This document shows, piece by piece, positions 4,148 through 23,676 of a stretch of 44,686 nucleotides of DNA. The stretch spans positions 1-44,686 of the forward strand of contig JAPONS010000010.1 of the NCBI GenBank assembly GCA_026713825.1, given 5' to 3'. Each line of letters opens with the position of its first letter. The first letter of the stretch is position 1. This DNA is from Chloroflexota bacterium (GTDB taxonomy: Bacteria; Chloroflexota; Dehalococcoidia; Lucifugimonadales; UBA1127). The notes under the pieces were generated by a model. It was not told the origin of the DNA and did not search any database. It saw only the letters and a list, made by a program, of their open reading frames with translations. The position numbers and the translations under genes were made by a program.

Positions 4148-4604
4148 TCTGTGGCTCGATGGCGGGCTCAAAGCCCTCTAGGAATAAGTCGCCGGCATCC
4201 TCGGCGCCGATGTTGACGCTCGCATAGAAGCGAAGTCCAAGCTGGTCACTTCGCCCCTCAGGTAGCGCATTCCTGTGATGGCCAAGAAGTACGGCCGGAA
4301 ATCGCACTGCTTCAGCTGGACGCCAGCCTGGAATGATGGCATCGACTACGTCTTCGCCATGCTCAACATCCTTGGCGACCACGCGGACGAGGGTCCGCCA
4401 GCCTCTTCGATTTGGCAAACGCCGGCCGTCGATCTCGTCTGAGCAAATCCTGATAGCATCGGCAAGTTGGTCTGGCCCAACTTCGTCCCGAGCAAGCAGC
4501 ATCGGGATCCTGCTCCTGTACTTTCGAATCGACGCGTTCTGGTCGACCTTGAAGTATTGGCTGATCAACACAGCCGGAAATGCCGTCGAATACAGCTGGG
4601 CCAC
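4128..4604 (-). CDS. Unrecognised protein of the metallo-beta-lactamase cluster
   Basis: A 158-residue soluble protein of unknown family. It is rich in charged residues, has a predicted helical first half (RKYRSRIPMLLARDEV) and a mixed second half with a LLGHHRN segment. No signal peptide or membrane helix is visible. It starts 13 nt after the stop of the 334-residue protein, and its 3' end overlaps the start of the metallo-beta-lactamase gene by 20 nt, which implies co-translation and a shared role. The short gap upstream leaves open that it was once the C-terminal part of the preceding protein. Confidence 0.6.
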   Translation of the reverse strand: MAQLYSTAFPAVLISQYFKVDQNASIRKYRSRIPMLLARDEVGPDQLADAIRICSDEIDGRRLPNRRGWRTLVRVVAKDVEHGEDVVDAIIPGWRPAEAVRFPAVLLGHHRNALPEGRSDQLGLRFYASVNIGAEDAGDLFLEGFEPAIEPQNGNSLS

Positions 4605-11196: not shown

Positions 11197-12828
11197 CTAT
11201 AGTGCCGCGTGCCTTGCGCCCAAGGCCCGACTGAACCTGTCGACTTCGCCCAAATGGCACCGCTTGTATTTTCGGCCACTCCCGCAGGTACAGAGGTCGT
11301 TCCTACCCAAGCCGCGCCTGGCTATGTCGGCAAGGTCAGACAGGTACTCCCGAAGGCCCGGTTCGCCGTGGGAGTATTCGCCCCAGAGGTGCCGCCTGGC
11401 AGCTTCCAGGCCATGTATCTCGGTGTAAGAGAGCCTGTAGAAGAATGGCACGACCAATTCGTCGATGAATTCTTTCAAGGTCGTCCGGCGGTCGGCCAAA
11501 GGCTGGAGGCCCAGACAGCAAGCCCCATCAGGGTAGAAATGCAGATCGATGGCATCGACCTGCTCCGTCTCCGCGATCCGTGCATGCCTGTCGCCGACTT
11601 CGTACACGGCGGGCCAGCCATTACGGTCGAGGGCGGCTAGCTCGATCCTTATGGAGAACGAGTCGCAGAGATACGAGTCCATGCCCACAGTCGAGTCATC
11701 ACCACCTATGTGCAGCTTCTCCCGTTCACTGTCGTAGGCGGCCCGCAGCTCGAGCTCGCCGGCGATGACGCCAGACTCCCGGTCGTAACGGAGACCTGGG
11801 AAGCTGACTCCCAGCCACTCAAGGTCCCTTTGCCCCAAGCTGAGTCGGCCCGCATCCCGCTGAGCCGAGGCGGTGGCCCAGGGCTTGCTGGGCTTGACTA
11901 CCCGAGGCGCCGCTACAGACGCAGCGGCGGAGGCAGAGACGCTTAGGCTACCGAATCCGTCCCCGAACAGGTCCCTCCACTTTCTGACGCTGGACTCATC
12001 ATCTTCGTCAGAGTACGCGTCCTCTATCCTTCTGGCGTAGCTGGAGATCATATCCCTAAAGTGACTGTACTTGGCCTGGTCCCAGTGCCGTGTGAAGGTT
12101 TCGGTTGGAAGAGCGGGATTGTGGATCTCGGGCATGGATGGGTGGGACTGCAGGAACTCATTCATGCGTGTGATTACGGTCAGCAGCGCGTCTGGAGTGG
12201 TCTTGAACTGAGTGTCACCTTCCCAGTCATGCACCGTATTTCCAATGAGCGTCGTCAGCAGGATAGACGGAGCGGTGAAGGTCTTCTTGTGGTCTCTCAA
12301 ATACTTGAGGAGCCGGGTAACGAGCTTGAGGTTGCCGTTGGTGCCCCGGTTCTTCCCGTTGAACCAGTCGCGGAATCCAGTACCGTCCGTGACCTCGTAC
12401 TCGTTCGTCTTCCTGTTGCAGATGAAGTGGTGGCCGTTGTAGGTGATGCAGGGAACCACGTCTATCTTGAACTCCCCCGCGTAGTTCACCGTGACGCACC
12501 TCGTGTTCCTCTGCACCTTGTCGGCGTAGTTGCCATTGGCCTTTAGGCACCAGTACACGTCATCGATGTAGTCCTTCGGTCCCTTGGAGCTGTCGTACTC
12601 CACGTAGACGAGGCGGTCCACGTCGTACTCGTCGGTGTCCTTGACGGGCCTGATGGTCGTACCAAGGGCGTATGACCCCTGCCGTTCGGTCCTCCTGTAC
12701 CCGACCAGATTCTGGCTCAGGTACTCAGAGACAGCCTTGTCGCTCCTCTTCAACCTCTCGTACCGCGAGGGGTTGAGATTCACGTGGTCTCTCATGAATT
12801 CGTTGAAGTCGTTCACTCGTCTTGTCAT
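11197..12828 (-). CDS. CD-NTase (CBASS cyclic oligonucleotide synthase) with C-terminal SEC-C motif
   Basis: A 543-residue protein. The nucleotidyltransferase signature is GSYALGT (51-57), then YDVD (D69, D71) and KIDVVP (D123), the three acidic ligands of the CD-NTase fold. In CBASS these enzymes sense infection and make cyclic di- or trinucleotides that switch on an effector. After the catalytic core comes a long Ser/Ala/Val linker (near 300-330), an unrecognised middle domain, and a SEC-C zinc motif (NDLCTCGSGRKYKRCH) close to the end. The start overlaps the CapV-like gene by 4 nt (ATGA), so the two are co-translated. The nucleotide product cannot be predicted. The SEC-C tail is an uncommon addition. 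Confidence 0.87.
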   Translation of the reverse strand: MTRRVNDFNEFMRDHVNLNPSRYERLKRSDKAVSEYLSQNLVGYRRTERQGSYALGTTIRPVKDTDEYDVDRLVYVEYDSSKGPKDYIDDVYWCLKANGNYADKVQRNTRCVTVNYAGEFKIDVVPCITYNGHHFICNRKTNEYEVTDGTGFRDWFNGKNRGTNGNLKLVTRLLKYLRDHKKTFTAPSILLTTLIGNTVHDWEGDTQFKTTPDALLTVITRMNEFLQSHPSMPEIHNPALPTETFTRHWDQAKYSHFRDMISSYARRIEDAYSDEDDESSVRKWRDLFGDGFGSLSVSASAAASVAAPRVVKPSKPWATASAQRDAGRLSLGQRDLEWLGVSFPGLRYDRESGVIAGELELRAAYDSEREKLHIGGDDSTVGMDSYLCDSFSIRIELAALDRNGWPAVYEVGDRHARIAETEQVDAIDLHFYPDGACCLGLQPLADRRTTLKEFIDELVVPFFYRLSYTEIHGLEAARRHLWGEYSHGEPGLREYLSDLADIARRGLGRNDLCTCGSGRKYKRCHLGEVDRFSRALGARHAAL

Positions 12829-13742
12829 TCGCTATCCTCCAGATTGGCCATGATGGCCTTGCTGTAATGGGTGAAGTCTCTGTCGGCCAGGGCCTTGAGG
12901 GTCTCCAGGTTCTTGGTGTCATCCAGCTTCCATGACTTGATCTGCGGGTCCAGACGCACGTGCCGGTCCCCGAGCAGCAGCTTGGCCATGTTGGTTGATG
13001 CCTGGGACTGTAGACCCAGCACATACGGGACCAGCTTCGCTCCGCCCCAGCCGGTCAGAAGACCCCAGGCTCCGCACCGAGTGTAGAAGCTGGCGGTCCG
13101 TCCGGTTCCGACGGACAGGACACGGATGCTTCCGAGGGGCTGGTGGAACCTGGAAAGCGCCTCGATGACGGCGATGATGGTGGGATTGTTGGCCCACAGC
13201 CCCCCGTCCGCCAGCAGGTACTGCCCAACCTGCCTGGGGTCGAAGTATGTAGGCGCAGCGCACGATGCCAGGATCGCGTCTCTGAGCCGCACCTCGCCGT
13301 CTCGCGTGTAGGTCTCTCCAAGTTCTTCCAGGTACCGGGACTTGAAGACATGCACCCCCCCGGTCGAAATGTCCGAACTCGTAATCATGAGCGGGGTCGA
13401 CACTTCTCCCATCGTTACCTCGGGCAAGTACTCGCCAATGACCTGGTCAAGGGGATGTGTTGAGTAGCGGCTCCGAATGAAGGGGAAGAGGCTGAACCTT
13501 CTCCTGCTGAAGATGCGGTCGGCCTGACTCTCGAACAGGCCTACCAGAGTCTTCATCGGGATGTTCATTGAGGCCGCACCCGCCAGGATCGATCCTGTAC
13601 TGGTTCCCGCGATGAGGTCGAAGCGCTCTCGTATAGGCGCGCTCAGGGTGTCCTCCAACCTGGCGAGGACGTGCGCACCGTACACACCCCTGATGCCGCC
13701 GCCGTCGAGTGCCAGTATGTTGAACGCATCGTCGCTTCGCAT
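12825..13742 (-). CDS. capV: CapV-like patatin phospholipase, CBASS effector
   Basis: A 305-residue patatin-fold lipase. The oxyanion loop DGGGIRG (13-19), the nucleophile elbow GTSTG (46-50, Ser48) and the catalytic Asp in ADGGLW (D179) are all present. The length fits CapV-type effectors, which degrade membrane phospholipids when bound by a cyclic dinucleotide and so kill the infected cell. It is the first gene of a two-gene operon with the CD-NTase. Start ATG 13742; the leader is about 140 nt. No signal peptide is seen, in line with cytoplasmic action on the inner membrane. The symbol rests on context as much as on sequence. Confidence 0.88.
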   Translation of the reverse strand: MRSDDAFNILALDGGGIRGVYGAHVLARLEDTLSAPIRERFDLIAGTSTGSILAGAASMNIPMKTLVGLFESQADRIFSRRRFSLFPFIRSRYSTHPLDQVIGEYLPEVTMGEVSTPLMITSSDISTGGVHVFKSRYLEELGETYTRDGEVRLRDAILASCAAPTYFDPRQVGQYLLADGGLWANNPTIIAVIEALSRFHQPLGSIRVLSVGTGRTASFYTRCGAWGLLTGWGGAKLVPYVLGLQSQASTNMAKLLLGDRHVRLDPQIKSWKLDDTKNLETLKALADRDFTHYSKAIMANLEDSE

Positions 13743-13969: not shown

Positions 13970-14236
13970 ATGTCCGATCCAAAGAAGGCCGAGGTTACTG
14001 TTGTCGTCAACGGAAAGCCCACGGAGGTTGTCGCCGTCAAGGACCGGCCCCTCGGCGACATCATTCAAGACGCTCTGGAGCAAACAAGGAACACGGGCCA
14101 GCCGGCAGAGAACTGGGAGCTCAGAGACGCCGATGGGAATCTGTTGGACCCGAGCAAGAACTTCGGAGACTATGCATTCCCGGAAAAGGTGACCCTCTTT
14201 CTAAACCTCAAAGCGGGGGTCGGGGGCAGTGGCTAA
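13970..14236 (+). CDS. Ubiquitin-like protein, DUF2604 type
   Basis: An 88-residue single beta-grasp domain. VTVVVNGKPTEV, LGDIIQDALEQT, NTGQPAENWELRD and VTLFLNLKAGVGG follow the DUF2604 pattern known from predicted bacterial ubiquitin-like pathways. The C-terminus is GVGGSG, so a Gly-Gly pair is followed by two further residues. It could be trimmed by the JAB protease two genes downstream to expose Gly-Gly, or used with its terminal Gly. It heads an operon with a CEHH protein (8-nt overlap), a JAB protease and an E1 enzyme. Targets are unknown. Confidence 0.85.
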   Translation: MSDPKKAEVTVVVNGKPTEVVAVKDRPLGDIIQDALEQTRNTGQPAENWELRDADGNLLDPSKNFGDYAFPEKVTLFLNLKAGVGGSG

Positions 14237-14840
14237 AAGTACCGGTCAGTACATGGATCCCTCGGTATCCCGCACGAAGTTCGACCGAGAAATCGCCGAG
14301 TACCGTGTCTTGGAGGCCGACTACCGGGCCCGCGGCTGGTTCTTGGTGAAGGCTGAATGGCCTGTGGTAATCGTGGTCCTGGCTTCGGACAAGACCAAGC
14401 CGCCACCCATAGTGGCCGCCGTCCAGTTCGAGTACACCAACTGTGACGCCGAGCCGCCTTCCGTTCGCTTCATTGATCCATTCTCGGGTCGGGTTCTTAC
14501 CTTCAAGGAGTTGCCGACCCGTCTCCCCCAGGGGGTTCCCGGCCAGGAATTGGCATCGCCTATTCCCGGTGGTCCCATGGTTCAGGTCATGGTGGCGCAG
14601 GACCTGATGCAAGCCAATTCCCCAGAAGACGTACCCTTCCTCTGCATTGCCGGGGTAAAGGAGTACCATGACCACCCGGGCCATTCTGGTGACCCGTGGG
14701 AGCTACATCGGTCCTCGGGCGGAGGTCGGCTTGTTCGCCTGTTGGAGGTAATATCCAAGTACGGCCTGGAGACGGTGAATGGTTTCAACGTCAACCTCCA
14801 GCCCCATGTTTCACTTGCATTCTCGGAACCTCCTCAATGA
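14229..14840 (+). CDS. CEHH-type predicted metal-binding protein of a Ubl pathway
   Basis: A 203-residue protein starting with GTG inside the end of the Ubl gene. Near the C-terminus FLCIAGVKEYHDHPGHSGDPW supplies C139, E145, H147, H149 and H152. This matches the CEHH predicted metal-binding domain described beside JAB and E1-like genes in bacteria. Its position where an E2 gene would be expected, and the lone conserved Cys, raise the possibility that it does E2-like work, but that is inference. There are no membrane segments. The next gene (JAB) starts in its stop codon (ATGA). Confidence 0.7.
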   Translation: MAKSTGQYMDPSVSRTKFDREIAEYRVLEADYRARGWFLVKAEWPVVIVVLASDKTKPPPIVAAVQFEYTNCDAEPPSVRFIDPFSGRVLTFKELPTRLPQGVPGQELASPIPGGPMVQVMVAQDLMQANSPEDVPFLCIAGVKEYHDHPGHSGDPWELHRSSGGGRLVRLLEVISKYGLETVNGFNVNLQPHVSLAFSEPPQ

Positions 14841-15328
14841 GTCTACGAGGAGTACAGCGGTTTCGAGTCAAAGCGGACTCCATACGTGCAACCGTGGAGG
14901 CAATTCGCGCAGCTGGGGTGAACGGCTACGAGTTGTTCGTAATCTGGTCGGGAACACCGGACGGCGACGTGTTTACAGTTGCCGAGGTGCACATCCCTGA
15001 TCAGGTCTCCTACAAACTCGGCGACGGACTTTGCGTGAGGATCGACGGCTCTGAACTCCATCGGTTGAATGTATGGCTCTATGAGGCCCAGCAGGTCGTC
15101 GGCGCTCAGGTCCATAGTCATCCCCGTGATGCCTACCACTCGGATACGGACAACGCATACCCGGTCGCCACGCTCGACGGCAGCCTGTCGATAGTCCTCC
15201 CGTACTTCGGTCGCGACGGTTGGGAATCAGATGAGATAGCCGCATACCGCCTCGGGCGAGACGGTTGGAACAGGGTGAGCGGCCCACTTAGCGATTTGGT
15301 TGAGGTTGTCGGTGATGGCGTTAGCTGA
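14837..15328 (+). CDS. JAB/JAMM-family Ubl protease
   Basis: 163 residues from ATG 14837. The zinc protease signature is complete: E32 (GYELFV), H93 and H95 (QVHSHP), S102 and D105 (HSDTDNAYP), that is E...HxH(x6)SxxD. Such enzymes remove ubiquitin-like tags or trim Ubl precursors, as Cap3 does in type II CBASS. It overlaps the CEHH gene by 4 nt and the E1 gene by 14 nt. The likely substrate is the DUF2604 Ubl or its conjugates. Confidence 0.87.
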   Translation: MSLRGVQRFRVKADSIRATVEAIRAAGVNGYELFVIWSGTPDGDVFTVAEVHIPDQVSYKLGDGLCVRIDGSELHRLNVWLYEAQQVVGAQVHSHPRDAYHSDTDNAYPVATLDGSLSIVLPYFGRDGWESDEIAAYRLGRDGWNRVSGPLSDLVEVVGDGVS

Positions 15329-16853
15329 CTACTTTCCCCGCGACGCGCTCGCTATATCTCAAGTTCTCCAGGGGTTCGACACCGACACCTTCACTGAAGA
15401 GCTTGAAGGTGTGCGAGTTGCAATCGCATTCGACGAAGAGGCGGCAACCAGCCGCGACGGACGCTACCTCCTTGACCTCTCTGTCAGGCTAGCGGCTCGC
15501 CTGTACCCGAGCCTTACGTTTTTCCCAGTTTCTGCCCGTGCCGAGTTCCCCGACGATCTCATCGCGTTGGCCATTAGAATTAACCCCAACATCGAAACCT
15601 CCAAGTCGGGTAACGCCTACGTTGCTCTTTCAGTCGGGGTACATGCACCTGCCGTCGATGCACCGACCGTACACGCCGGCTGCGACGGCTGGGTTGCCAC
15701 GGTTGGGACTGAGGGACCATACAGCACGAGCGACCTGGGCAACCCCTTCGGAGCTGGCTTTGCGGCCTGCATAGCGGCAGCCAACTTGTTTCGCTTCCTC
15801 TTCCTCCCTGATGGCAAGACTTCGCTGGACACCGATGCCAGCTTTCCTCCCGACGCGGACTCTTTCCCCCGTCTAGTGGCCTCCAATCTGACAGACCCCT
15901 TGGTGTTGTTCGGCGTTGGAGCAGTCGGCAATAGCACCGCCTGGTCCCTGGCGCGGACGCCGCTCACCGGGCAGATTCACCTAGTCGATCCACAAGTCGT
16001 CGAGCTTAGCAATCTCCAGCGCTATATCCTTTGCGCCCGGAGCGACGAGGGTGGTATCAAAGTCGACATCGCCGGCCAGGAGTTTGGAGGAAGGCTAAGG
16101 GCGCTTCCTCACAAGGAAGCTTTGGCCTCCTTCCTCGAAGCCAACGGTTACAGGTGGGAACGCATTCTGGTTGCTCTCGATTCCGCTCATGACAGGAGAG
16201 CTGTACAAGCGAGCCTGCCTCGTTGGATCGCCAACGCCTGGACCCAATTGGGTGATCTCGGCGTGTCCTCTCATTCCTTTTTGGGGCAAGATGCCTGTCT
16301 TGCATGCCTGTACTTGCCGTCCCAGAAATCCAAGAGCGACGACCAAATTATCGCTGAAGGCCTCAAGATACCCCAATTCCAGACCCAAGTCCGTTTCCTA
16401 CTGGGGAACGGCCAGGCGACAGGCAAGGAAATCTGTGACGCGGTTGCCAGCGCTTGGGGCATTCCCACCAAAAACCTTGATCCCTATGCAAATAGGCCGA
16501 TACGTGAGCTTTGGGTGGAGGGCATCTGTGGCGGCGGCATCATTCCTCTCGGTGAGGCCGGACCTGCTCCGAGAGAGTTGCAAGTTCCCCTTGCTTTCCA
16601 ATCGGCTCTTGCTGGCGTGCTGCTGGCCGCGGAAGTGGTCATCGACGTGTTGACCGGCGGGGCCCGACGCAAGACCCTGTTGCGCCAGATGGACGTCTTG
16701 AGTCCTCTAGGAGAACTCTCTCCCCAGCCGGCACTCAAGGCGGGAACGGGGCTATGTATCTGTGAGGACGACGATTTTGTCGCCACCTATCGAGCAAAAT
16801 ACATGGCAGAAGAAGAAATCCCCGTTGGGGTCGGCTTAGGCCAAGTGGATTGA
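15315..16853 (+). CDS. E1-like Ubl-activating enzyme (ThiF/MoeB fold)
   Basis: 512 residues from ATG 15315, overlapping the JAB gene. The Rossmann adenylation domain starts with LVLFGVGAVGNS (198-207), then HLVDPQVVELSNLQRY, the N-Q/R pair typical of ThiF-fold E1 enzymes. C328 and C331 (DACLACLYL) are candidates for zinc or thioester Cys. The first 190 residues form a separate N-terminal domain of unknown fold, and the C-terminal part has GICGGGIIPLG. No E2 domain is fused, unlike Cap2 of type II CBASS. It should adenylate the Gly end of the DUF2604 Ubl. Confidence 0.85.
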   Translation: MALADYFPRDALAISQVLQGFDTDTFTEELEGVRVAIAFDEEAATSRDGRYLLDLSVRLAARLYPSLTFFPVSARAEFPDDLIALAIRINPNIETSKSGNAYVALSVGVHAPAVDAPTVHAGCDGWVATVGTEGPYSTSDLGNPFGAGFAACIAAANLFRFLFLPDGKTSLDTDASFPPDADSFPRLVASNLTDPLVLFGVGAVGNSTAWSLARTPLTGQIHLVDPQVVELSNLQRYILCARSDEGGIKVDIAGQEFGGRLRALPHKEALASFLEANGYRWERILVALDSAHDRRAVQASLPRWIANAWTQLGDLGVSSHSFLGQDACLACLYLPSQKSKSDDQIIAEGLKIPQFQTQVRFLLGNGQATGKEICDAVASAWGIPTKNLDPYANRPIRELWVEGICGGGIIPLGEAGPAPRELQVPLAFQSALAGVLLAAEVVIDVLTGGARRKTLLRQMDVLSPLGELSPQPALKAGTGLCICEDDDFVATYRAKYMAEEEIPVGVGLGQVD

Positions 16854-17756: not shown

Positions 17757-18821
17757 TCACCGGCGGCTCTCAATTCCGTTGACAGTGGCTTCGGCATGTT
17801 CAATCTGCGCCATAATCCAGTCGAACGTCGGGACCTCTCCGAGAATCATGCCCCCCATGGCGTCATAGTCGGCTTCGATCATTGCGCGAAGTTCGCTCTG
17901 TGGGACGAGTCTGAGCGATCCGGGAACTGCTTCCTGGAATCGCTTCCAGGCTTGGCGGAACGCGATAAGATTGTGATCCCGGACTGCAGCCAGCATTGAA
18001 ACGTTGGACAGGGCGGACATGCCACTCTCGGTCGCCGTGATCATGGCTACATCGTAATAGTGGCGCGAGACCCGATCCCTATCAAGTGGCAGCCTCTGTT
18101 GGTCGCGGTATCCACAGTGCAGCCCGTGCAGAATCAGCAGCTTCTCCCAATAGGTCCGCTCCGGCGCAATCACTTGAATATTGCTCACCTCAAGTGACCT
18201 GGAAGGCAGTTCTTTGGCCAGTATAGGGGTAACAGTACAGTTTAGGTTTGGATCCAGCGCTGATCTCGCTCCCGCCTCGATCTTCACGCGAGGGGCCACG
18301 TAGGAGCCAACACCACTCGGATACTGGGTGGAGTACTCGATCAGTAACGACTGCCTGTCGACATCATTCTCATCCGGTATGACCCGGCACCCCTCCACAA
18401 TCTGGTTAATCGATGAAGTCAGTCCATCCGACAGGTCTCCTAGGATATAGCTGCTGCATGCATCGCTTAGCTTCCCAAAGAGGTCGCTCCGCGCTCTATT
18501 CGAGAGATTCTCCGCGATGGTCGGATCGTCGGCGCCCGCAAAGCCCAAGTCGTCACGATAGACGACGAGATCTATGTCTTCCGAGAACCTTTGAATGAGC
18601 CCAAAGGCCTTGGACAGGGAGGTCCCACCCTTGAATAGCAGTCTCGGATGCCCGACGGGCAGCTGGTTGTAGAGCACTTCCAGCACAAGACAGACCCAGA
18701 GGTCCTTTTCTACGTAGCTGGGCAACGTATCGAGTCGGCTCGCTGCGGCTTCGAACACGTCTCGCTTATCTAGCTCCGGAAGAGCGAGAAACCATTCGAG
18801 CGATTTGAGGGTTTCATTCAT
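17757..18821 (-). CDS. AbiEii-type nucleotidyltransferase toxin
   Basis: A 354-residue protein. FKGGTSLSKAF (63-73) and SEDIDLVV (D82, D84) are the nucleotidyltransferase motifs of the AbiEii/MenT family, whose members block growth by modifying tRNA or other RNA. The middle and C-terminal helical regions (PERTYWEKLLILHGL; DRVSRHYYDVAMI) match the family's usual order. It starts 4 nt inside the antitoxin gene, so the pair is co-translated. The pair forms an abortive-infection type toxin-antitoxin system. Confidence 0.88.
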   Translation of the reverse strand: MNETLKSLEWFLALPELDKRDVFEAAASRLDTLPSYVEKDLWVCLVLEVLYNQLPVGHPRLLFKGGTSLSKAFGLIQRFSEDIDLVVYRDDLGFAGADDPTIAENLSNRARSDLFGKLSDACSSYILGDLSDGLTSSINQIVEGCRVIPDENDVDRQSLLIEYSTQYPSGVGSYVAPRVKIEAGARSALDPNLNCTVTPILAKELPSRSLEVSNIQVIAPERTYWEKLLILHGLHCGYRDQQRLPLDRDRVSRHYYDVAMITATESGMSALSNVSMLAAVRDHNLIAFRQAWKRFQEAVPGSLRLVPQSELRAMIEADYDAMGGMILGEVPTFDWIMAQIEHAEATVNGIESRR

Positions 18822-19441
18822 GCGGCAACAGTCAGTTCAGCCGCTATACTGTGTGCCAACGGCAATGCCCAGCCGGGTAAACCCCCACTGTTCTGCACCA
18901 GGTCCCGTTTCACATCGTCAGGGAGATCCCGCTTCAGAGTCGAAATGACCTGGGGGTCTGAGGCCTTGTCAGGACCAAGCCATCGCAGTGCCTGTGCCAC
19001 AGGTGCCGCCGGTTTTCCAGCCCACTGCATGACTCTAGGGCCCGCATGTTGGAACCGGACCGTTCGTCCGTCTATTACGAGTGTCCTCGTGGAGCCGTCC
19101 GTCACATAAGAGGCCTTCGCGGGCACTGCGTTAGTGAGACCGAGCTGGTTGGCAGCCACTAAGCCATCCGGAATAATTCGGAAACCGTCCCGCCGTGCTA
19201 GTGCTGCGATGGCGGCATCCCAGTCGACCGGAGCAGGTCGTTTCAGCATGTCGCTCATCCTGGGCATATCGTAAAGCCCGTGGCCGACCCGGCGCAGTTG
19301 GCCCGCTTTGACGAGGCGCGACAGCGCCTGATCGACAGCCTCACGGCTGCCGAGACCGAGGAAGTCCTTTGGGGTACCTACCCACTTTCCTCTACCACGC
19401 TTGGACATCCTCTTCATGATCTTGTGGGCTATGGGAGTCAT
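18818..19441 (-). CDS. AbiEi/DUF6088-type antitoxin
   Basis: A 207-residue protein. The N-terminal 70 residues form a winged helix (DFLGLGSREAVDQALSRLVKAGQLRRVGHGLYDMP), and the rest is the DUF6088 domain (RIIPDGLVAANQLGLT; LVIDGRTVRFQHA). In AbiE systems this gene precedes the toxin, neutralises it and represses the operon. ATG 19441 follows GAAAGGGTGG. A minus-strand promoter with consensus spacing lies 38 to 66 bases upstream. Confidence 0.85.
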   Translation of the reverse strand: MTPIAHKIMKRMSKRGRGKWVGTPKDFLGLGSREAVDQALSRLVKAGQLRRVGHGLYDMPRMSDMLKRPAPVDWDAAIAALARRDGFRIIPDGLVAANQLGLTNAVPAKASYVTDGSTRTLVIDGRTVRFQHAGPRVMQWAGKPAAPVAQALRWLGPDKASDPQVISTLKRDLPDDVKRDLVQNSGGLPGWALPLAHSIAAELTVAA

Positions 19442-19727: not shown

Positions 19728-19756
19728 TTGACTAAATTTAGCTAATAAGCTAATCT
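19728..19756 (+). promoter_or_regulatory. XRE/ImmA operon promoter with palindromic operator
   Basis: TTGACT (19728-19733), a 17-bp spacer and TAATCT (19751-19756). The palindrome TTAGCT-AATA-AGCTAA (19738-19753) fills the spacer and touches the -10 box, so a bound protein would block RNA polymerase. The same TTAGCT-N4-AGCTAA palindrome sits in the same place in the promoter of the multiubiquitin operon at 21119-21134. The regulator is most likely the XRE protein encoded immediately downstream. Confidence 0.75.
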
Positions 19757-19796
19757 TCCAACCAAGTCCGGCTAAGCCAGAGAGGAGGGACAGGTC

Positions 19797-20153
19797 ATGG
19801 CAGAGCGATTCGGAGATACCCTCAGAAGGTCCCGGCAGAAGGCTGAGATGACCCTGGGGGATGTTGCGAGGCTATTGGACGTCTCCGTGGTCTACGTCTC
19901 AGACGTGGAGCGCGGCAACCGCAGACCGTTTAGCAACGAGCGCATCCTGAAAGTCGCGAGGTTGCTGAAAGCAGATCCAGCACCGCTGATTGCCGCGGCA
20001 GATGTCGAGAAAGGTGTCATCGAGTACGACATCTCCAAGGCCAAGCCGCTGGAGGCCAGGGTTGTTGGAGACCTTGTCAGCGGACTGGCCCGTGGCGGCA
20101 TCTCGGAGGATCAGCTGGAGAGGATCAGGACGATCCTGAAGGACTCCGAGTAG
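19797..20153 (+). CDS. XRE-family transcriptional regulator
   Basis: A 118-residue protein. The N-terminal helix-turn-helix is plain: FGDTLRRSRQKAEMTLGDVARLLDVSVVYVSDVERGNRRP (residues about 5-44). The C-terminal half is helical (VVGDLVSGLARGGISEDQLERIRTIL) and probably mediates dimerisation. AGGAGGG precedes ATG 19797. It is followed by an ImmA/IrrE protease after 4 nt, a classic pair in which the protease cleaves the repressor on a stress or infection signal. It very likely binds the two TTAGCT-N4-AGCTAA sites. Confidence 0.9.
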   Translation: MAERFGDTLRRSRQKAEMTLGDVARLLDVSVVYVSDVERGNRRPFSNERILKVARLLKADPAPLIAAADVEKGVIEYDISKAKPLEARVVGDLVSGLARGGISEDQLERIRTILKDSE

Positions 20154-20157
20154 GTAG

Positions 20158-20793
20158 ATGACGATGTGGCAGGGACTAGTGGGAGTGCGTGCAGATCGCG
20201 GCTACAGCTACCGGAAGCTGGAGAAGGTTGCCTCCTACGTTCGCGACCGGCTCGAATACTCTCCGACTGAAGCGATCAATACGCTGCTGCTGTTCGACGG
20301 CCTAAACATCAAGGTGCGGGACAGGACAGGCCGGGACATCCCGATACACGGCAGCGTGATCGAGCTCAACGGTTCTGAAGGATTTGCGAAGTATGATGGA
20401 GACCGCCGCGTCATTGAGATTCTGGCGTCGCCCGAGACCTACGACTGGTTGGAGACGGGTCACCCACGCGGCGGTTTTTTCGTTGCCCACGAGCTGGGAC
20501 ACTGCCTGCTGCATACCGACCAGCTTGTGCGCTTGGCCCAGATGCCCAAGGCGAAGCAGGCTGCGCTCCATCGGGGTGGGCAGGAGGTCAGACACGAAGC
20601 CTACCGGGACACCGAGTGGCAGGCCAACGCGTTCGCCGGCGCCCTGCTGATGCCCGTCCAAGGGCTCGTGATCCTTGAGCAGGAGCACGGTGAGCTCTCA
20701 CAGGACATTATCGTCGAGCACTTCGACGTCTCTACCGAAGCCGCGGGCTATCGGCTTGAGCTGTACAACGATAGGAAGAAGGAGTTGCTCTAG
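20158..20793 (+). CDS. ImmA/IrrE-family metallopeptidase
   Basis: A 211-residue protein with the zinc motif HELGH (111-115) and the third ligand in TEWQANAFAGALLMP (E153), the hallmark of ImmA/IrrE peptidases. In other systems these enzymes cleave a partner XRE repressor to turn on phage or stress genes. The XRE gene directly upstream is its obvious substrate. No membrane helix or signal is present, so it is cytoplasmic. An intrinsic terminator lies about 105 nt after the stop. Confidence 0.88.
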   Translation: MTMWQGLVGVRADRGYSYRKLEKVASYVRDRLEYSPTEAINTLLLFDGLNIKVRDRTGRDIPIHGSVIELNGSEGFAKYDGDRRVIEILASPETYDWLETGHPRGGFFVAHELGHCLLHTDQLVRLAQMPKAKQAALHRGGQEVRHEAYRDTEWQANAFAGALLMPVQGLVILEQEHGELSQDIIVEHFDVSTEAAGYRLELYNDRKKELL

Positions 20794-20899
20794 CCGCAGC
20801 TTCCAGGGCGGCCACGAGTCCAGCTTCCACCCGCCGCCGGCCTGAGCTGGCGGCCTGCGGCCGACTCTGTGGCGTGACGCTGCGGTCGTAATGCAGACT

Positions 20900-20931
20900 C
20901 CCGGTAGTTCTACCTGCCGGGGGTGCTTTTT
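20900..20931 (+). terminator. Intrinsic terminator after the XRE/ImmA operon
   Basis: CCCGGTAG and CTGCCGGG pair over 8 bp (one G-T pair) with a 6-nt loop, followed by GGTGC and five T residues (20927-20931). It separates the XRE/ImmA operon from the multiubiquitin operon, so the two are transcribed independently from similar promoters. The remaining stretch from 20794 to 21107 shows no gene. Confidence 0.7.
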
Positions 20932-21107
20932 CCCCCTCGCAGGACTGGGGACGCAGTGAACATGCCCTGACAGGTTGGCTGCTGCCCCTCCCGTCAATAC
21001 TCTTCTTCCGTGGAAGCTGAGGTCGACCCGGGATACTCGGAAGGGAGGGAAGTCAACCGACGTACCTTGCCGGAGGAATCGGTTGACGGGTCTCTCTACG
21101 CAGGTGG

Positions 21108-21137
21108 TTGACAGATACTTAGCTCATTAGCTAAAAT
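21108..21137 (+). promoter_or_regulatory. Multiubiquitin operon promoter with XRE-type operator
   Basis: TTGACA (21108-21113), an 18-bp spacer and TAAAAT (21132-21137). TTAGCT-CATT-AGCTAA (21119-21134) overlaps the spacer and the -10 box, as at 19738. The two promoters therefore share both the operator and its position, which is direct support for common repression. Confidence 0.75.
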
Positions 21138-21212
21138 ACTAATTACGGTCTCCAAACGAGAGGCCGCCGGTCCCCAAACCAAATCCTTATTTCAGTCAAC
21201 GGAGGCTGACTC

Positions 21213-21497
21213 ATGGTAGCAGAAGATCAGAAGCCCATCCCCATCGATGTGGAGGACCACAAGACGACCACGATCGTCGTGGAGGGCACTCCCCACAAGT
21301 GGTTCGAGGAGTACATCACCTATGAGCAGGTGGTCACGCTCGAAGTGCCCGACTACGCGCAGAACCCGCAGATTACCTACACGGTGATCTACAAGCGAGG
21401 CCCCCGCGACAAGCCCGAGGGCACCCTCTCCAAGGGCGGCACCGTTAAGGTCGTCGAGGGAATGGTGTTCAATGTTACACCGACTGGTCAGTCATAA
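21213..21497 (+). CDS. Multiubiquitin-domain ubiquitin-like protein
   Basis: A 94-residue protein with one beta-grasp domain of the multiubiquitin type (HKWFEEYITYEQVVTLEV, ITYTVIYKRGPRDKPEGTL, GMVFNVTPTG). The C-terminus is TGQS rather than Gly-Gly. A strong GGAGG site lies 7 nt before ATG 21213. The E1 gene begins inside its last 26 nt. Multiubiquitin genes next to a ThiF-fold E1 and DUF6527 form a recognised predicted conjugation module in bacteria. The target and whether the tail is processed are unknown. Confidence 0.82.
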   Translation: MVAEDQKPIPIDVEDHKTTTIVVEGTPHKWFEEYITYEQVVTLEVPDYAQNPQITYTVIYKRGPRDKPEGTLSKGGTVKVVEGMVFNVTPTGQS

Positions 21498-22665
21498 CGA
21501 CGACCTCCGGCGTCTGCTCGAAAAGGGCTACGCCGTAGCCGTCGACAGCAATCACCTCGTCGTCCGGGATATTCCGTACCTGAACGGCGAGGTCGGGCTG
21601 TAGTGGGGTGCACTCGTCGCGAAGCTGGAGTTCATTGACAAGGTGCGCGTCACCCAGGACGACCACCAGGTGTACTTTGCCGGGTCAGTGCCCCACGGCT
21701 TGGACGGCAATCCGATCCCGAACCTGGCCGGGGGTCCCACCACCATCGTCCTGAGCGAGGCCTGTAGCGACGTGGTCGTGCAGCGGTCGTTCTCCAACAA
21801 GCCCAAGGCCACGGGCAGGTTCGAGGACTTCTTCCACAAGATCGAGAGCTACGTCGCCATCATCTCGGGGCCGGCGATGGAGACCCACGGCGCCAACCCC
21901 TACACGTTCCGCTCCGTGCAGGAGGCCCCAACCGATTCGGTGTTCAAGTTCCACGACACCCTGACCACCCGAGCGGAGATCTCGGACCTGGCCGCGAAAT
22001 TCAAGGACGATGTGATCGCCATCATCGGCCTAGGCGGCACGGGCGCATACGTACTGGACTTCCTAGCAAAGACGCCCGTTCGGGAGATTCGGGCGTTCGA
22101 CCTGGACCCCTACCACGTGCACAACGCCTTCCGGTCCGCCGGACGGCTGGAGGAAGGTGAACTGGGGAAGTCAAAGGCGGCGGTCTACGGCGGCCGCTAC
22201 GAGAACTTCCGCACGGGCCTGTCGGTGACCCCCGCGTTCATCGACGCGTCCTGCCATGAAGAGGTGGACGGGGTTACCTTCGCCTTCGTCTGCGTCGACA
22301 AAGGTTCATCCAGGGCGGGCATCTTTGACCTGCTCATATCCAAGGGCATCCCCTTCATCGACGTGGGGATGGGGCTGAACCGCAAGAGGGGCCCCATCAG
22401 CGGCCTGCTGCGCACCACCTACTACTCGACGGAGCACGGGCAAGGGGTCAGGGAGAAAGACCTGGCCCCGCTTACGGATGACCCGGATGACATCTACCGG
22501 ACGAACATCCAGATCAGCGAACTGAACGCCCTCAACGCATGCCTGGCGGTGGTTAGGTTCAAGCAGCTCAGGGGCTTCTACTTCGAGGACACTCCCTACC
22601 ACCACCTGGTCATGGACGTCAGCGACCTCAAGACGGCGGGGGAGTGTGGGCTTGGCGAAGATTAG
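21472..22665 (+). pseudogene. E1-like ThiF-fold enzyme interrupted by an in-frame amber codon
   Basis: From ATG 21472 the frame reads SHNDDLRRLLEKGY and HLVVRDIPYLN, the usual N-terminal domain (DUF6791-like) of E1 enzymes in multiubiquitin operons, up to codon 43. TAG at 21601-21603 then interrupts a segment where relatives read Leu-Gln-Trp-Gly; here it is CTG-TAG-TGG-GGT, so a CAG-to-TAG change is likely. The frame continues without shift: VTQDDHQVYFAGS, then the adenylation domain IAIIGLGGTGAYVLDFL and AFDLDPYHVHN. A GTG at 21643 could restart translation of a 340-residue form lacking the N-terminal domain. It may be a true pseudogene, a read-through gene or a base error. Confidence 0.75.
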
Positions 22666-23035
22666 GCTGGAACGAGTCCACTACATGCCGCAGCACCTGA
22701 GTCCCGGGGTGCTCTACGTCTCGGAGGAGTTCGGTGCCGCGGCACACCTGTGCGCCTGCGGATGCGGCACAAAGGTCAGGACGCCCCTCGGTCCCACCGA
22801 ATGGTCCCTGAAGGAGACCGATGGTGGGCTAACGCTTCGCCCGTCGGTCGGCAACTGGCAGCAAGCCTGCCAGTCCCACTACCTGATCACGGACGGTGAG
22901 GTGGTCTGGGCAGAGCGGTGGACCGCTGAACAGATCGCCGACGGGCGGCGCCGCGAGGAGGAGCGTCGGCGCAGGTACTACGACTCCCTCATGCGCAGAC
23001 TATGGCGGTGGATTAGAGGCCTGTTCAGACGCTAG
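22646..23035 (+). CDS. DUF6527 family protein
   Basis: A 129-residue protein whose GTG start overlaps the E1 end by 20 nt and follows GGGGGAG. It has HYMPQHLSPGVLYVSEEF, the Cys cluster CACGCG (C36, C38, C40), PSVGNW, and CQSHYLITDGEVVWAERW, the order of DUF6527 proteins that accompany multiubiquitin and E1 genes. The Cys and His residues suggest zinc binding. The C-terminal 40 residues are highly basic (Arg-rich helix). Its biochemical role is unknown; it may act as an E2/E3-like or reader component. Confidence 0.85.
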   Translation: MGLAKIRLERVHYMPQHLSPGVLYVSEEFGAAAHLCACGCGTKVRTPLGPTEWSLKETDGGLTLRPSVGNWQQACQSHYLITDGEVVWAERWTAEQIADGRRREEERRRRYYDSLMRRLWRWIRGLFRR

Positions 23036-23091: not shown

Positions 23092-23676
23092 ATGAGCTAC
23101 CGGATATGGGAGATAGACTACGCCGGGTCGCCAAAGGTCCTGTGGAGTGGGCTCAAGCCCACGCCGGAGCAACGGGCCATCGCCGACCAGCTGGGGATTC
23201 AGGTGACGCCCGACGACACGTTCGGAGCGGTGGCCTCCGCCATCTTGGAAAGGGTCGCCGATGCGATAGGCTGCCCTCCCCGTGTCGTGTCGGAGCGCCA
23301 ACGGGAGCTGGCGGATGAGCTGGAGATCGACGTGACGGACTGTGCCTCCGCTTGGCGCGCGTTTATGAGAATCCAGGAGGCGATTCAGCTCTCGAACCTG
23401 GAGGCGGTGAGGCGAATGGGGTTGAAACCCGGCGACATAGTCTTCAAGCCGGACGACCGGATTGAACAGAGCCTGATGGAAGCGTTGGGTGAGAGATGGG
23501 AGTCCGTCGCCGGAGAATTCCCCAGGGAGTACGAGGTGTCCAGCATCCGGGAGGACGGCCAAGTCTACTTCAAGGGTGGTACCGAGCAGGCCCCCGCGCG
23601 CTATCTGGAGAAGCGCACCACTCCCGAAGAGGCTGGGCAGCCAGATGTGCAGACAGATCAGTCGGAAGGAAGGTAG
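23092..23676 (+). CDS. Unrecognised protein with two SAP-like helical repeats
   Basis: A 194-residue protein. Two related segments, TPEQRAIADQLGIQVTPDDT (about 24-43) and SERQRELADELEIDVTDCAS (about 67-86), share the T/S-x-x-Q-x-x-x-A-x-x-L-x-I-x-V-x-x-D pattern. Each is followed by an Ala-rich helix. The remainder is predicted beta-rich (GDIVFKPDD; REYEVSSIREDGQVYFKG). It lies 56 nt after DUF6527 and 6 nt before the next gene. The repeats could bind nucleic acid or protein. No function is assigned. Confidence 0.6.
   Translation: MSYRIWEIDYAGSPKVLWSGLKPTPEQRAIADQLGIQVTPDDTFGAVASAILERVADAIGCPPRVVSERQRELADELEIDVTDCASAWRAFMRIQEAIQLSNLEAVRRMGLKPGDIVFKPDDRIEQSLMEALGERWESVAGEFPREYEVSSIREDGQVYFKGGTEQAPARYLEKRTTPEEAGQPDVQTDQSEGR

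Follow-up and report, generated by a model that had tools for sequence, protein, structure and literature searches.

A palindrome common to two promoters points to an XRE/ImmA pair as the probable switch of a bacterial ubiquitin-like operon

Does a small regulatory gene pair that lies directly upstream of a bacterial ubiquitin-like (Ubl) operon also control that operon? The window (the whole stretch of Chloroflexota DNA analysed here, 44,686 nucleotides) carries on its plus strand a gene for a putative XRE-family HTH repressor, CapH-like (19797–20153, 118 amino acids; Pfam HTH_31, 4.5e-13), and a gene for an ImmA/IrrE-type M78 metallopeptidase (20158–20793, 211 amino acids; Pfam M78, 7.4e-12). 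On the same strand follow the genes of the Ubl operon, which encode a multiubiquitin-domain protein (Multi_ubiq; 21213–21497, 94 amino acids; Pfam PF14452, 4.7e-14), an E1-like protein with DUF6791 and ThiF domains (21472–22665) and a DUF6527 protein (22646–23035; Pfam PF20137, 3e-23). A first-pass annotation had located the palindrome TTAGCT-N4-AGCTAA at 19738–19753 and again at 21119–21134, and both 16-mers are indeed found there. Operator O1 (TTAGCTAATAAGCTAA) lies at the first position, in the promoter of the XRE/ImmA pair, and operator O2 (TTAGCTCATTAGCTAA) at the second, in the promoter of the Multi_ubiq–E1–DUF6527 operon, with no strand assigned to either. Judged from sequence, the XRE/ImmA pair very likely controls the neighbouring Ubl operon, because the palindrome is exclusive to these two promoters and the arrangement recurs in five other bacteria.

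Many unrelated copies of the palindrome across the genome, which the annotation had named as evidence against its reading, were not found. The complete assembly (96% complete, 114 contigs, 2,644,287 bases) was scanned and contains exactly two copies of TTAGCT-N4-AGCTAA, with 0.05 expected at the 60.6% G+C of the window. As a control for chance, pairs of 200-bp promoter regions were dinucleotide-shuffled, and one of 20,000 such pairs had a common palindrome with 6-bp arms. The remaining defence promoters in the window have no copy of the operator; they include that of a second Ubl operon (13970–16853), so the switch would be private to the Multi_ubiq operon.

Both operators overlap recognizable promoter elements. 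The XRE/ImmA promoter (19728–19756, plus strand) consists of a -35 box TTGACT (19728–19733), a spacer of 17 and a -10 box TAATCT (19751–19756), the last of these being weak with a 3/6 consensus match. The Ubl operon promoter (21108–21137, plus strand; TTGACA, spacer of 18, TAAAAT) is a good sigma-70 match (11/12). At both sites the -10 hexamer starts with the terminal TAA of the operator, so that a bound dimer would cover the -10 box, a position that fits repression. The palindromes had been described as lying inside -35/-10 pairs; their place in the promoters stands, but they overlap the -10 box rather than sitting cleanly between the boxes. The terminator that had been proposed between the two operons is matched by a terminator-like hairpin at 20897–20924 (plus strand; -17.1 kcal/mol), which is followed by GCTTTTT. 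The relatives described below showed no hairpin like it, and the terminator was dropped as a conserved part of the switch. Two further inverted repeats were observed in the leaders: a conserved one (CYGGCTAAGCCAG, approximately 19766–19782) between O1 and the XRE start codon, which occupies the same place in the relatives, and a small one around GGAGG in the leader of the Ubl operon.

Relatives of the XRE protein were sought in one genome per species across 84,980 species. Five were found (L005–L009), 76–93% identical in the alignment, in metagenome-assembled genomes labelled Actinomycetes, Acidimicrobiia, Caldilineaceae, Chloroflexi and Gemmatimonadaceae. Isolate names suggest that these come from sponge or similar marine samples, and the bacterium of the window is probably sponge-dwelling as well. 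All five relatives have the same locus order of XRE, ImmA, gap and Ubl operon, and the operator is present in both promoters of all six loci of this XRE subfamily (the window and the five relatives), which are few, related by transfer and not fully independent. Within the genomes of the relatives, TTAGC-N6-GCTAA occurs only at the XRE/ImmA and Ubl promoters, with slight deviations from this form at O1 of L007 and at the first O2 palindrome of L006.

When the 12 sites were aligned, columns 3–5, 9 and 12–16 proved invariant; O1 is identical in four of the six loci, with one difference in L008 and two in L007. The -10 hexamer begins with the last TAA of the operator in 12/12 promoters, and a TTGAC-type -35 box could be placed at 17–18 bp in ten of them. 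For the XRE/ImmA promoter, the -35 box and spacing are kept in five of six loci, L008 having no clear -35 box at O1. A third half-site, GCTAA, stands 3 bases downstream of O2 in L005, L006, L008 and L009 (NNNGCTAA) and is degenerate in the window (AATACTAA, 21135–21142, no strand assigned). Identity to the window 40–120 bp upstream of the sites is 0.23–0.31 (the one exception, at 0.69, is O2 of L006), and in the XRE gene the synonymous third positions are 0.61–0.76 identical; given this divergence, conservation of the operator does not merely reflect recent copying of the loci. No operator was found in 320 kb of other Ubl loci, some of which have other XRE types.

One relative differs in what follows the regulatory unit. 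In the Caldilineaceae locus (L007), Multi_ubiq is replaced by an operon with PADLOC matches to BilA (1.3e-37), BilB (1.6e-51), BilC (6.5e-55) and BilD (2.9e-151), which contains the complete BilABCD set of Ubl, E2, JAB peptidase and E1. BilABCD is a known antiphage Ubl conjugation system. The XRE protein of this locus is 76% identical to that of the window with its recognition region unchanged, ImmA and both operators are present, and the BilA promoter has the form TTGACA-17-TAACAT over the operator. This exchange, in which the payload changed while XRE and operator were kept, is the strongest argument from sequence that XRE is probably the protein recognizing the operator, and gives a hint that the role of Multi_ubiq operons resembles that of BilABCD. 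When BilD homologues on three plasmids were inspected, XRE/ImmA was not found upstream; a helicase gene is there instead. The first-pass idea of XRE as a regulator common to both promoters is supported: the operator accompanies the XRE subfamily across phyla and is kept at both promoters even where the payload differs. A role as common repressor is well supported because the operators of the relatives occur in both promoters only and because the same unit in L007 stands before a BilABCD payload.

The two regulatory proteins were then compared with characterized families. The XRE protein matches the PADLOC capH profile (1.3e-6) over residues 1–116, its HTH has distant similarity to DdrO, and residues 29–45 (the recognition-helix region) are identical in all six XRE proteins of the subfamily. 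ImmA matches the PADLOC capP profile (1e-12) at positions 64–155 of 242, leaving 156–242 unmatched, and its best PDB match is CapP (7t5t, E 0.027), the chain of which extends approximately 100 residues further. The zinc active site of ImmA is intact (HELGH and a downstream Glu, E153, invariant in the alignment), and the protein ends with the M78 region, with no C-terminal sensor domain recognized. AlphaFold2 models made from the six-row alignments were poor for both XRE (pLDDT 48) and ImmA (pLDDT 42). By analogy with the logic of CapH/CapP and DdrO/PprI, and with the active site intact and the capH and capP profiles matched, ImmA likely cleaves XRE.

Infection had also been named as the trigger that releases the Ubl system, and this goes beyond the evidence. 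In PprI, a C-terminal GAF-like domain is needed for ssDNA activation (PMC10904395); ImmA has no such domain, so the ssDNA trigger of CapP is not simply transferable to it. Searches of mobile DNA gave no relatives of ImmA in phages and none of XRE in viral contigs or plasmids. The matches listed for the 16-mer in viral contigs were seemingly chance ones, with no XRE or ImmA relative among them. A further XRE search, through 396 genomes of the phylum of one relative and 64 of that of another, recovered known copies only.

Association of such pairs with Multi_ubiq extends beyond the subfamily. Multi_ubiq was detected in 15 of 400 genomes taken to be Chloroflexota, and an XRE and ImmA pair or fusion adjoins it in 8/15 further Chloroflexota regions (L035, L036, L038, L039, L042, L045, L047 and L049, the peptidase of L042 being recognized by its HExxH motif only). 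Among eight plasmid Multi_ubiq–ThiF–DUF6527 operons, two (L027 and L028) carry genes for an HTH regulator and an ImmA peptidase divergently upstream, two (L029 and L033) carry another kind of pair, with a HigA-like second member that bears an ImmA-type domain, and a WYL gene lies near the remaining two with a regulator noted (L030 and L034). A palindrome common to both promoters was looked for in the distant tandem XRE/ImmA and Multi_ubiq loci L036 and L045 (by script) and L042 (by eye), and none was found. The divergent intergenic region of the Rhizobium leguminosarum operon (L027) holds two similar palindromes of another sequence, TCCTACG-N4-CGTAGGA. In the Sulfitobacter and Sagittula plasmids (L028 and L033), a small DUF2188 gene (4361–4582) was seen before Multi_ubiq.

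Taken together, we propose that an XRE dimer would bind a 16-bp operator (TTAGC-N6-GCTAA) at each of two promoters, its own and that of the Multi_ubiq–E1–DUF6527 operon, covering the -10 box in each, such that both operons would be kept low together. ImmA, produced from the repressor's own operon, would inactivate XRE by cleavage under stress, and both promoters would then be released at once. Binding to the operators, repression and cleavage are what we infer from the protein families concerned, and the model as a whole, with XRE repressing both operons through one operator each and ImmA inactivating XRE under stress, is in our judgement probable. An XRE protein bound to both sites might instead act as an activator or timing controller, in the manner of restriction-modification C proteins, with ImmA ending expression; in favour of this, XRE has matches to PADLOC Control_protein profiles as well (8.8e-7), and O2 shows a stack of several half-sites. 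Typical activator sites, however, lie upstream of the -35 box, whereas in every promoter here the operator lies over the spacer and the -10 box, so that a dimer bound to it should obstruct polymerase. The -35 boxes are moreover near consensus, so an activator is seemingly not needed, and we regard this role as unlikely.

Self-complementary A+T-rich motifs do arise by chance in very large collections, and the palindromes could be a duplicated promoter piece or the sites of another host regulator, with XRE uninvolved. Such an origin is highly improbable given that the genome has two copies only, that the motif moves with the XRE subfamily across phyla whose host regulators differ, and that it is missing beside other XRE types. 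The pair could equally be viewed as a self-regulating toxin-antitoxin or mobile-element maintenance module from which the Ubl operon has only borrowed an operator, and one report describes an XRE and zinc peptidase pair in Brucella as a putative toxin-antitoxin system (PMC10538038). This would be very unlikely for a unit that a Ubl conjugation operon directly follows in 6/6 loci, of a kind that adjoins Multi_ubiq in eight of the 15 other Chloroflexota regions, and of which searches of plasmids, viral contigs and two phyla found no solitary copy of the XRE subfamily.

Under the preferred model of a shared XRE repressor, the condition of the operon it would control needs separate consideration. 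The E1 frame of the window is cut by an in-frame TAG at 21601–21603, where the frame is open in L005, L006 and L009, and the Ubl operon of the window may therefore be damaged. The switch could thus be intact while the Ubl pathway of the window is dead or decaying, which is compatible with the main model and which we consider a real, if minority, possibility. On the other side, the remaining frame stays open over 340 codons with the ThiF domain intact, and a GTG at 21643 could start a shortened E1 of 340 amino acids without roughly the first third of DUF6791; the TAG itself could reflect a true mutation, variation between strains or a consensus error in the metagenome assembly. A DUF6527 protein is also encoded by the third gene in L005, L006, L009 and the plasmid operons. 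The multiubiquitin operon is a putative defence system; for Bub operons, protection against phage has not been demonstrated so far according to the literature (PMC13373217). After the Ubl operon, at 23092–23676, the window encodes a conserved protein (MSYRIWEI...), which likewise comes after the Ubl operon in L009 (9231–10505), where its frame is seemingly disrupted.

CapH and CapP, an XRE repressor and an M78 peptidase, control CBASS and other immune operons. The window pair resembles them in that the XRE gene lies directly upstream of the M78 peptidase gene and beside an immune-type operon, in that the capH profile is matched over its full length and capP over the peptidase part, and in that the neighbouring operon's promoter contains a candidate operator; in all six loci such operators overlap the -10 boxes of the two promoters. 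It differs in that its peptidase of 211 amino acids has no C-terminal region after M78, CapP (7t5t) having 291 amino acids, and in a tandem layout with two separate promoters and one operator each, for which the operator sequence is mapped. Because its peptidase is without the C-terminal domain, the pair was not filed as CapH/CapP proper, though it is CapH/CapP-like in predicted action. The Deinococcus pair DdrO and PprI/IrrE likewise combines an XRE repressor with an M78 peptidase that inactivates it, as proposed for the window; the DdrO regulon, however, is scattered whereas the window's genome has two operator copies only, and PprI carries the GAF-like domain absent from ImmA. BilABCD is placed behind the same type of XRE/ImmA/operator unit in L007, but the window operon consists of Multi_ubiq, E1 and DUF6527, with no E2 or JAB peptidase recognized and no match to BilA, BilB or BilC.

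Bub operons provide a precedent for shared half-sites. Of 544 Bub operons, 219 have CapW, or CapH with CapP, as neighbours. CapS, which represses Bub operons, recognizes palindromes that share one half-site in two promoters, its own and that of the Bub operon, at the -10 box (PMC13373217, EMBO J 2026), an arrangement like that of the window. CapS and CapK differ as a STAS-wHTH protein and a GHKL kinase that use the half-site TTAA and phosphorylation instead of proteolysis. Given CapH and CapP beside Bub operons and the shared half-sites of CapS, the switch is of a type already described for bacterial immune operons, and the general idea is published for CapH with CapP and for Bub operons. What is new here is the mapped operator, its recurrence across phyla and the natural payload swap.

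An XRE/ImmA switch of a bacterial ubiquitin-like operon thereby gains an exactly located operator that can be mutated, together with a naturally occurring case in which the same switch would drive a proven antiphage system, BilABCD. Operator and swap make two questions directly testable: does phage or DNA damage induce the multiubiquitin operon, and can a peptidase that has no sensor domain still be the trigger? A more speculative reading, which we hold only tentatively, is that XRE, the sensor-less peptidase and the matching operator form a portable cassette, set before Multi_ubiq or BilABCD, that responds to something other than peptidase-bound ssDNA, such as a host or phage factor or the Ubl machinery.

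Several other defence-type genes were observed upstream of the XRE gene. An AbiEi/AbiEii type IV toxin-antitoxin pair (17757–19441, minus strand; PADLOC 1.8e-54 and 3.8e-90) lies directly upstream of XRE and is transcribed away from it. The second Ubl operon (13970–16853) is on the plus strand and encodes a DUF2604 Ubl, a Metal_CEHH/BilB-like protein, a JAB-like protein (BilC, 2.7e-12) and an E2-E1 protein (BilD, 1.1e-12). Divergent from it, a CBASS-type pair occupies 11197–13742 on the minus strand, composed of a cyclase with an SMODS/DncV-like domain (NCBIfam 2.3e-24, Pfam 5.9e-28) and a patatin-type CBASS phospholipase (7.9e-71).
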